Below are positions 16,138 to 53,314 of a DNA stretch of 64,000 nucleotides, piece after piece (position 1 is the stretch's first letter; each line of letters starts with the position of its first letter). The position numbers and the translations under genes were made by a program. Origin of the DNA: Chitinophagaceae bacterium (GTDB lineage Bacteria > Bacteroidota > Bacteroidia > Chitinophagales > Chitinophagaceae); contig JAICZH010000002.1 in NCBI GenBank assembly GCA_025933775.1, positions 1 to 64,000 of the forward strand. The letters are read 5' to 3'. The notes beneath the pieces were generated by a model. The model made no database searches. It was given only the letters and a program-made list of their open reading frames with translations, and was not told the DNA's origin.

Positions 16138-18417
16138 TTACTTTTGATCAGACATTGTAAACGTTACCGGTTGCAATCTGTAAGCATTAACAGTGCGCCC
16201 GTTTTGTGAAGCAGGAATCCATTTCGGGCCGCTCGCAATCGCATTCACAGCCACTTCTGCCAAATGCGTTCCTTTCATAGTAGTAGCTTCGGCATTGCTT
16301 ACACTGCCATCTTTATTTACGATAAATTTTACAACACAGGTGCCATTATCTTTTGTAGTAAAAGAATCTATTGAAGTCTTAATTTTATCAGTTATATATT
16401 TCACCCATGCTTGCTGCCCACCGGGAAATTCTGGCGTTACTTCCACTTTTGTAAAAATTTGTTCAGGAATTGTATCTGTATGCACGCCTTCAATTTGTTT
16501 CACGTCAATGGGCTTTGTTGTTATTTCAATAACTCCGTCTTTTCCTTTTTCTCCATATTTTTTTATTGCTTCATCTCCTTTATGAACCGATATACTTGCA
16601 ATACTTTCTACAGGCATATTTTTTAATTCTTCTTTAGAGATTTCTTTACCATCAACAAAATAAACAGGATCTGGTTTACTATTTTTTTCACTAACTGTGC
16701 TTACAATTTCTTTACTTTTTTTATTTATAATAACAACGCCATTCTTTCCTTTTTCGCCATAAAGTTTTGTTGCACTTTTCCCTTTTAAAACATTTATACT
16801 TTGTATATCTTTTGGATTAATTGAATTAATTTTTTCTTTTGAAACTATTTTTCCATCCACAACATATAGAACATTTGCAGGTAATCCTTTTGTAGTTGAC
16901 GAAGAAGGTAAAGTGTCATTTACTATTTTATCATTATTAATAACAGATTCATTTTGTTCAGCATATTTTTCAATGCCATTCAAAATATTTTGTGCAATTA
17001 TTTTTTGATTTTCTGGTTTTATTAAATAATCAAAATCTTTTTGAGTAGTAAGAAACCCAGCCTCAATCAATATTGCTGGGCATTGATTGGCTTTTAAAAC
17101 CCATACACCTTTACTGCGTTGCACTAAATCATTTTGAATAGATAATCCATAGTTGTTTTGAAAAGAATTAATAATGGCTGATCCCAATAATTTGCTTTGT
17201 TGCAAATAAGGATTGTCATTCTGCGGTATCAAAATACGCAGCCCATTATGTTCATTTTTTGTTTCTTCGGCGTCAATGTGTATCGAAATAAAAATATCTG
17301 CTCTCTTTGCTTCTGCAAAATTCACTCTTTCTTTTACTGTTGAATATTCATCATCTTTTCTTGATAAAATAATATTGATATTATCATTGGTATTCATTTC
17401 TTTTACCAATTTGGCAATAGAAAGATCAATATCTTTTTCTTTGATATTATTTTCTATCGCTCCATAATCATTTCCTCCATGACCTGCGTCAATTACTACA
17501 GTAATTTTTTTGCCTTCATAAAATTTTGACGCAGATTTATTTTTTAGTTTTAATGTAAAAGCAAAAAATATAATAGCTGCCAAAGGCAATACCAACAACC
17601 TGCTGAGATAATTTACTTTCGGATTTTTATTTTTTGTAAACATGATGATTCTTCTTTTTAATGGTGAATGAAAAAAATTATTGGTTAGTGAAAACTCTTG
17701 CCCGGGATAAACTGTTTGTAAAACCATTTCTGCAAAAGCGCTGATGTCACTGTCTTCCAGTGCTTCTTTATCTGCAATAAATTCGTGTATCATGCCCAGT
17801 TCTTTTCGCATGAGCCAAAAGAAAGGATTCATCCAGAAAAAAATGAGCAACACATTCATAAATATTTTATCGTAAGAATGTTTCTCTTTTATATGCGCTA
17901 TTTCATGATTAAAAATTTGCTGTCCTTGCTTTGAATGAATATCAATTGCATTATTCCAGAAAATAGAATTGAAAAATGAAAACGGCGTTCCTTTCGCATC
18001 CGTAATAAAAAAATTGATTCCTTTCATTTTGGTTTCAGGGTTATTTTTCTTTAGTCTGAATATTTTATACAACGCAAGAAAAAAAATCAACAGCAACACG
18101 AAGGTGATAATGCAATAAGCAGCCGCAATAATATTTTCCGAGCTAAGCGGATTGCTGTGCCTGCTGTAATCAATAATTATTTCATCGCCGCTATTAATGG
18201 TTTGCAGCATCTGTACCACCGCTCCTTTGTCTTCCGTTGTGTTTTGAAAAATATTTATTTTAATCACAGGTATTATCAATGAAAGAACCACCGAAGCCAA
18301 TAAATAAAAGCGGTTCCAGCGATGAAATATTTTATTGCGCAACGACACATAGTAATAACCAAACAATATGCCGGAGCATATAATTACTTTTAATAAATAC
18401 CAGGCAAGCGTTATCAT
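16138..18417 (-). CDS. BlaR1-type M56 metallopeptidase fused to N-acetylmuramoyl-L-alanine amidase (Amidase_3), two TonB-plug-like segments and a TonB C-terminal domain
   Basis: HEIAHIKEKHSYDK (M56); VVIDAGHGGNDYGA...ISIHIDAEE...ILIEAGFLTT (Amidase_3); 2x VDGKxxSKExxx...KYGEKGKDGVI; C-terminal TonB energy-transducer motif. Confidence 0.92.
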   Translation of the reverse strand: MITLAWYLLKVIICSGILFGYYYVSLRNKIFHRWNRFYLLASVVLSLIIPVIKINIFQNTTEDKGAVVQMLQTINSGDEIIIDYSRHSNPLSSENIIAAAYCIITFVLLLIFFLALYKIFRLKKNNPETKMKGINFFITDAKGTPFSFFNSIFWNNAIDIHSKQGQQIFNHEIAHIKEKHSYDKIFMNVLLIFFWMNPFFWLMRKELGMIHEFIADKEALEDSDISAFAEMVLQTVYPGQEFSLTNNFFHSPLKRRIIMFTKNKNPKVNYLSRLLVLPLAAIIFFAFTLKLKNKSASKFYEGKKITVVIDAGHGGNDYGAIENNIKEKDIDLSIAKLVKEMNTNDNINIILSRKDDEYSTVKERVNFAEAKRADIFISIHIDAEETKNEHNGLRILIPQNDNPYLQQSKLLGSAIINSFQNNYGLSIQNDLVQRSKGVWVLKANQCPAILIEAGFLTTQKDFDYLIKPENQKIIAQNILNGIEKYAEQNESVINNDKIVNDTLPSSSTTKGLPANVLYVVDGKIVSKEKINSINPKDIQSINVLKGKSATKLYGEKGKNGVVIINKKSKEIVSTVSEKNSKPDPVYFVDGKEISKEELKNMPVESIASISVHKGDEAIKKYGEKGKDGVIEITTKPIDVKQIEGVHTDTIPEQIFTKVEVTPEFPGGQQAWVKYITDKIKTSIDSFTTKDNGTCVVKFIVNKDGSVSNAEATTMKGTHLAEVAVNAIASGPKWIPASQNGRTVNAYRLQPVTFTMSDQK

Positions 18418-18783: not shown

Positions 18784-18818
18784 AATTTTTTTAATTTTTC
18801 AGATTCAAAAACAAATAT

Positions 18819-18856
18819 AAACTAATTTTTTAGTTTAAAAACTAATTTTTTAGTTT
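18819..18856. promoter_or_regulatory. Duplicated dyad AAACTAA-TTTT-TTAGTTT (two copies, 20 bp apart), putative BlaI-type operator
   Basis: 18819-18836 and 18839-18856 are identical 18-mers with 7-bp inverted arms, upstream of blaI-like gene. Confidence 0.7.
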
Positions 18857-18879: not shown

Positions 18880-18901
18880 TGGTCGGTGGGGACACCGACC
18901 A
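18880..18901. repeat. Hairpin repeat TGGTCGGTGGGGACACCGACCA (copy 1)
   Basis: TGGTCGGTG/CACCGACCA arms; second copy at 23377. Confidence 0.85.
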
Positions 18902-18988: not shown

Positions 18989-19678
18989 ATGGCGGAAACA
19001 ATTGTAGAATTACGTAATGTAAATATTTATCAGGGCGAATCGCTCATTCTGAGCGAAGTGAATATTATTGTGAACCGAGGAGAGTTTGTTTATCTCGTTG
19101 GTAAAACGGGAACCGGCAAATCAAGTCTTTTAAAAACTTTGTATGGCGATCTTACACTAAAAGAAGGCGAGGGAATTGTTGTTAGTTATAATCTTTCAGA
19201 ACTTGATTGGAAAAAGGTTCCTTACCTGAGACGCAATCTGGGCGTGGTTTTCCAGGAATTTCAATTACTTACCGACAGAAATGTAAATGAAAATCTCAAA
19301 TTTGTTTTAAAAGCAACCGGATGGAAAGATGATAAATTAATGGATGAAAAAATTGCTGATGTACTTGATAAAGTTGGTTTAAAAACCAAAGGTTTTAAAA
19401 TGCCTTTTGAGCTTAGTGGCGGCGAACAGCAAAGAGTGGATATCGCAAGGGCATTATTAAATTCGCCGAAATTAATTCTTGCCGATGAGCCAACCGGAAA
19501 TCTCGATCCCGAAACCAGTGACGAAATCATGCAGCTTCTTTTTAGCATAAGCCGCGATTATGGAACATCAATTATAATGGCCACGCATGATTATCCTGTT
19601 ATCAATAAATTTCCGGCGCGAATGATAAAAACGGAAAGAGGCAAAGTGTGGGACAATGCTACTCTATCCATCGGATAA
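18989..19678 (+). CDS. ftsE: FtsE-like ABC transporter ATP-binding protein
   Basis: [11 protein letters not shown] Walker [16 protein letters not shown] signature, [11 protein letters not shown] Walker B. Confidence 0.9.
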
Positions 19679-53189: not shown

Positions 53190-53314
53190 TGTGTAGCTAT
53201 TTGACTACAAATATATGCGTAGTTATTTAACTACGCAATTTTTTTTTTAATAAATAAAAAATATTCTGTCTAACTTTTTTATTGAGATATTTTGTGGGAA
53301 GAATAATTTTAAAC

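Follow-up and report, generated by a model that had tools for sequence, protein, structure and literature searches.

An Amidase_3 domain in the sensor position of a BlaR1-like membrane protease encoded beside blaI in a Chitinophagaceae bacterium

The BlaR1/MecR1-BlaI/MecI systems of staphylococci and bacilli are constructed from a membrane M56 protease with an HExxH...E zinc site, a BlaI-type repressor encoded in the same operon, and an enzyme-like domain located outside the cytoplasm after the last membrane helix, which is penicillin-binding and class D beta-lactamase-like. In BlaR1 the protease faces the cytoplasm and the sensor follows the last helix, and BlaI is cleaved directly by BlaR1 (PMC9834060). 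In B. licheniformis, the peptidoglycan dipeptide gamma-D-Glu-m-diaminopimelate was found to be a coactivator of BlaI (PMC3305447). BlaI-M56 systems are numerous in Bacteroidota, for which no description of their signal was found, and they include M56-TonB_C proteins without any amidase domain, which share with the locus described here the genomic site, the operator, and the plug and TonB_C tails.

This locus lies in a window of 64,000 nucleotides of Chitinophagaceae DNA, and its features are collected in Table 1. The fusion gene is a single open frame of 759 codons with its ATG at 18417 and its stop at 16138, and the Pfam matches of its product all exceed the curated cut-offs: Peptidase_M56 at residues 165-259 (E 3e-12), Amidase_3 at residues 307-484 over the full length of the profile (1-174 of 174, E 2e-43), Plug in two stretches (E 4.5e-9), and TonB_C at residues 691-754 (E 3.2e-8). 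The first-pass annotation, which had read M56, amidase, two plug-like repeats and a TonB domain in one protein, is thus borne out as to its composition. An assembly artefact, which it had raised against itself, is ruled out by the recurrence of the fusion in many assemblies, in the genus at the same syntenic place. An AlphaFold model built from 16 aligned sequences reached a mean pLDDT of 78, with most of the amidase at about 90, and its pTM of 0.45 means that the domain folds are readable and the inter-domain arrangement is not.

Table 1. Coordinates of the features of the locus (positions in the window unless a locus handle is given)
Feature	Position	Strand	Basis
M56-Amidase_3-plug-plug-TonB_C fusion protein, 759 aa	16138..18417	-	ORF, Pfam, AlphaFold model
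M56 (BlaR1-type) membrane protease region, residues 1-290	17548..18417	-	Pfam M56, Foldseek, hydropathy
HEIAH zinc-protease motif, residues 171-175	17893..17907	-	alignment
Amidase_3 domain, residues 305-487	16957..17505	-	Pfam 2e-43, PDB 4rn7, Foldseek
Amidase zinc ligand H313	17479..17481	-	alignments
Amidase zinc ligand E327	17437..17439	-	alignments
Amidase zinc ligand H380	17278..17280	-	alignments
Putative catalytic Glu E452 (GAG)	17062..17064	-	alignment, codon check of relatives
Plug-like module 1, residues about 514-564	16726..16878	-	Pfam Plug stretch 511-561, SusC/RagA matches
Plug-like module 2, residues about 582-634	16516..16674	-	second Plug stretch; model repeats strand-helix-strand order
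TonB_C-like domain, residues about 660-757	16147..16440	-	Pfam TonB_C; weak Foldseek match
BlaI/MecI-type repressor, 119 aa	18424..18783	-	Penicillinase_R 8e-30 (Pfam), MecI 1okr 5.5e-10
TATATTTG, match to Bacteroidota -7 box, abuts operator	18812..18819	-	sequence
Candidate tandem operator AACTAAAAAATTAGTT-TTTA-AACTAAAAAATTAGTT	18820..18855	-	genome-wide pattern search
FtsE-like ABC ATPase, divergent neighbour of blaI	18989..19678	+	NCBIfam, synteny
Tandem M56 genes (Flavobacterium denitrificans, two Pedobacter)	L092 3968-7252; L093 3992-6804; L094 3962-7224		

The membrane region displays hydropathy peaks at residues 1-26, 34-57, 96-114, 185-203 and 271-289, and it carries the hallmarks of M56/BlaR1-type peptidases, namely an HExxH motif with a downstream Glu as third zinc ligand (E212, within HEFIAD) and a paired repressor of the BlaI/MecI type. 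HEIAH is invariant except at its middle positions in a 12-row alignment, and both HExxH and H-E-[FY]-x-A-D are kept in all fused members listed. S. aureus BlaR1 (8exp) was recovered as a Foldseek match of the model (E 1.8e-6), and NCBIfam blaR1_generic scored 28 bits (cut-off 400) in a match limited to residues 162-285, which does not make the whole protein a BlaR1. From its homology to BlaR1 (PMC9834060) and from hydropathy, the HExxH protease should be on the cytoplasmic side and the amidase in the periplasm.

The outer domain is where the locus departs from BlaR1/MecR1, since an Amidase_3 domain directly follows the last membrane helix and so occupies the slot of the penicillin sensor of BlaR1. 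The best PDB sequence match of the fusion protein was the C. difficile amidase 4rn7 (residues 305-487, E 1e-22), and target-normalised TM values of 0.90-0.91 to 4rn7 and CwlV (1jwq) were obtained with Foldseek. In NCBIfam the domain falls near CwlD, AmiA and AmiC, yet under every equivalog cut-off. The fold, the zinc ligands and the catalytic Glu are shared with CwlV, CwlD, LytH and 4rn7, from which the present domain differs in being tethered behind an M56 protease and in that four relatives carry Gln in place of the catalytic Glu. H313, E327, H380 and E452 are all present in the window protein on alignment; a degenerate amidase is thereby ruled out, and the earlier claim of a complete amidase between the M56 and plug parts, which would have fallen with the zinc ligands, holds.

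In the reading that we prefer, and to which we give an even chance, the protein is a BlaR1-like sensor-protease, and a peptidoglycan amidase serves as its receptor in the periplasm, as an enzyme or, at times, as a pseudo-enzyme. BlaI would bind the tandem operator and repress its own operon, while the M56 protein would be an inner-membrane protein whose HExxH protease faces the cytoplasm and whose amidase fills the periplasmic sensor slot. The amidase would engage or cleave peptidoglycan, or fragments accumulating under wall stress, and its signal would pass via the last membrane helix to the M56 protease, which would cut BlaI, so that the operon would be derepressed and more fusion protein produced. 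In some lineages, an amidase deprived of its catalytic Glu and retaining zinc would act as a receptor, in the manner of the beta-lactamase-like sensor of BlaR1. A dipeptide of the type that coactivates BlaI could also derive from the stem peptides that an amidase releases. The modest M56 match and the pTM of only 0.45 weigh against a sensor-protease.

The blaI gene lies upstream of the fusion gene, from which 6 bp separate it, and adjoins fused genes elsewhere as well, in agreement with the repressor pairing of the first-pass annotation. The scissile pair N-F of S. aureus BlaI/MecI aligns with S-M in the window BlaI, which speaks against the sensor-protease. Across the family of the window BlaI, P1' is mostly Met or Leu and Asn does not occur at P1. 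The consensus of the Bacteroidota -7 box is TAnnTTTG, and upstream of blaI at every examined locus in the genus and in nearby genera, two 16-bp dyads AACTA-N6-TAGTT, separated by 4 bp, precede a -7-like box. The exact tandem occurs at one zero-mismatch site in the own genome (3.25 Mb), with a shuffled expectation of 0.01 for the window. With up to two mismatches tolerated, each of 12 relatives contains a single copy, and the reversed control gave none. One tandem operator per genome in 13 genomes suggests that the switch controls only its own operon. A wider BlaI regulon was rejected by a search covering the 4-bp-spaced tandem and single dyads, in which the tandem was found at blaI only and single dyads were rarer than in the reversed-pattern control; we infer that BlaI controls mainly its own operon. 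In comparison with BlaR1/MecR1, the operator differs in sequence and in being confined to a single copy in each genome, in front of its own operon, and no beta-lactamase or PBP gene was seen in the operon. The region upstream of the window's blaI does not contain the classic operator TACA..TGTA.

Several further elements of the surroundings were recorded. Elsewhere in the genome the tandem operator is approached, with 3 mismatches, at one place only, an inverted GCGTAGTTA...TAACTACGC at 53209-53244 of the window, which looks more like a hairpin than a BlaI site. Another hairpin, GGTCGGTG-TCCC-CACCGACC, at 18881-18900 between ftsE and blaI, is absent from the relatives' intergenic sequences that were compared and is possibly an interspersed repeat. 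The FtsE-like ATPase, whose best NCBIfam match TIGR02673 (1e-66) is below cut-off, adjoins blaI in most relatives; its linkage to the amidase is uninformative, since amidase-free relatives keep the same neighbourhood.

The genome's only tandem operator drives an operon that makes an amidase, which favours an alternative in which the amidase is the output: BlaI and M56 would adjust how much of a cell-wall hydrolase is present, with its synthesis restricted to times of need; the hydrolase would be tethered to the membrane and perhaps freed by M56 self-cleavage, while the signal would be sensed elsewhere, for example as a cytoplasmic peptidoglycan dipeptide on BlaI. The response of B. licheniformis BlaI to such a dipeptide (PMC3305447) fits this alternative, which we regard as rather unlikely. 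It is opposed by the amidase-free relatives, in which the operator and operon arrangement are unchanged and the output must be another one; the older output appears to be the M56 protein itself, with the amidase coming and going.

The conservation of the active site bears on both the output alternative and the sensor-protease. None of the 26 fused rows, and none of the free amidase rows, has lost a zinc ligand. The position of E452, which corresponds within the family to E199 of CwlD, is Glu in all 37 scorable free amidases, a sample drawn by similarity to the query, and Gln in four fused relatives (G004, G007, G020 and G021), with codons CAA or CAG; three changes are needed on the M56 tree. 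The excess of Gln in fused over free amidases gave a Fisher p of 0.025, which is indicative only, given the relatedness of the rows and the double counting of one fused genome. In CwlD, E199A abolished function and did not lower the protein level (PMC8496864). Loss of the catalytic Glu in three lineages, with the domain and zinc ligands retained, goes against the amidase as output and leans to a sensor. The retention of E452, and of all catalytic residues, in most members leans to an enzyme and makes plain hydrolase activity equally compatible. It favours the output alternative, as does the end-to-end alignment of the domain with the open-site amidases 4rn7, 5emi and CwlV, E. coli AmiC aligning only in part. 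Two of the Gln-bearing relatives (G007 and G020) share a clade with G001, where the amidase domain is absent, and their Gln together with that loss could also be read as the decay of an unneeded enzyme.

Domain mapping covered 60 relatives and the own genome. Within the genus, 13 of 22 genomes carry M56 fused to Amidase_3, and G029, from a different genus, does so too; the 13 include G013, cut by its contig end just past the amidase start, and several members of the genus are too incomplete to judge. In same-genus fused genomes with long enough contigs, the gene occupies the same site, between purM-ribF and the divergent FtsE-like ATPase. The own genome harbors two M56, two BlaI and three Amidase_3 genes, of which the studied locus has one each; another Amidase_3 gene (L198, G000:C84:32661-33170) encodes a longer, secreted-looking protein, its family match containing one internal TGA. 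Among the matches listed from a scan of a genome collection, the fusion was also found in at least Longitalea arenae, Flavobacterium denitrificans, three Pedobacter, and Chitinophagaceae and Chitinophagales MAGs, two records apparently duplicating genomes that bear G handles here. In F. denitrificans and two Pedobacter, two M56 genes follow blaI in a row and only the first is fused to an amidase. A class-wide sample contained the fusion in 7 of 293 genomes (G000, G301, G260, G317, G187, G216 and G135), with blaI directly upstream in all five loci that were re-fetched. Judged from these sequences, the architecture is recurrent but uncommon across Bacteroidota; the first-pass annotation had noted neither this recurrence nor the apparent restriction of the repressor to its own operon. 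No description of an M56-Amidase_3 protein was found in the literature searched, whose coverage was partial and took in few subscription papers.

On the M56 tree, fused and unfused rows interleave, with at least eight changes on well-supported branches (a quick method, with some long branches), and on the amidase tree at least four changes between fused and free labels are forced: the Flavobacterium fusion groups with free-standing Flavobacteriia amidases, and that of G187 lies among free amidases of other phyla. Independent fusions, in more than one event, are therefore likely from the tree topologies, and the several fusion or fission events argue for a functional link. In G035, a separate membrane-anchored Amidase_3 gene (L041 7523-8865) stands between ftsE and blaI, the M56 protein has plug modules and lacks an amidase, and the operator is situated between the amidase gene and blaI. 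This amidase nests among the fused ones, which does not support it as an unfused, Rosetta-stone ancestor; fission appears as likely as an ancestral split. Sister genera and one congener have the same BlaI-M56 locus but no amidase in it, so that the switch can do without this domain, a further point against the sensor-protease.

Domain shuffling without signalling coupling, in which the C-terminal tail of Bacteroidota M56 proteins merely collects periplasmic modules such as plug, TonB_C and amidase, seems improbable to us. The tails do vary widely, comprising none, plug only, one to three copies of TonB_C, or an amidase with or without them, and G001 lost the amidase inside a fused clade of the M56 tree. 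Shuffling fits poorly, however, with an amidase that is always placed right behind the last helix, at an almost unvarying distance within the genus, with repeated independent fusions adjoining blaI, and with zinc ligands that are never lost.

The first-pass annotation further assigned the tail to the TonB system. Two plug modules are indeed present, but what they match is the profile's C-terminal half alone (the best stretch covers 52-107), and no barrel family was matched in Pfam, so the protein does not qualify as a TonB-dependent receptor. A C-terminal TonB domain, as in TonB transducers, is likewise supported by Pfam and by a weak Foldseek match (E 0.018), with NCBIfam TIGR01352 below cut-off, but it is the C-terminal domain only. 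For coupling to ExbB/ExbD, TonB carries an SxxxH motif in its membrane helix; SxxxH was not found in residues 1-320 of the fusion protein. The presence of plug-like and TonB_C domains would allow them to couple peptidoglycan damage to TonB-dependent transport. We consider this highly improbable, as the membrane part has no SxxxH, the copy number of the tail varies, and both modules are absent from many fused members (for example L007/L087, L091 and L092-L095). The claimed coupling is accordingly not upheld, and the tail appears dispensable.

The cell-wall damage sensor suggested by the first-pass annotation is plausible, and the recurrent fusion beside blaI, the dipeptide coactivator (PMC3305447) and the change of E452 to Gln with zinc kept lend circumstantial support to a cell-wall sensor. 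More tentatively, these loci may encode BlaR1-like receptors of a second class: a repeatedly fused amidase, disabled in some lineages by a Glu-to-Gln change with zinc ligands retained, would directly sense peptidoglycan in the periplasm, and the M56 protease would relay the signal by cleaving BlaI, in one-operon autoregulation.

New here are the amidase in the BlaR1 sensor slot, the once-per-genome tandem operator, the replacement of E452 by Gln in three lineages with zinc kept, together with the loss of the amidase in a sister genome, and the dispensable tail, in a protein devoid of a TonB anchor motif. An enzyme whose ligand is known, peptidoglycan, in the sensor slot, together with natural variants of its catalytic Glu, offers a testable ligand for the BlaI-M56 class of Bacteroidota. 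An amidase receptor, if true, would parallel the beta-lactamase-like receptor of BlaR1 and would be relevant to the dispute over what peptidoglycan fragments do in the induction of BlaI systems.
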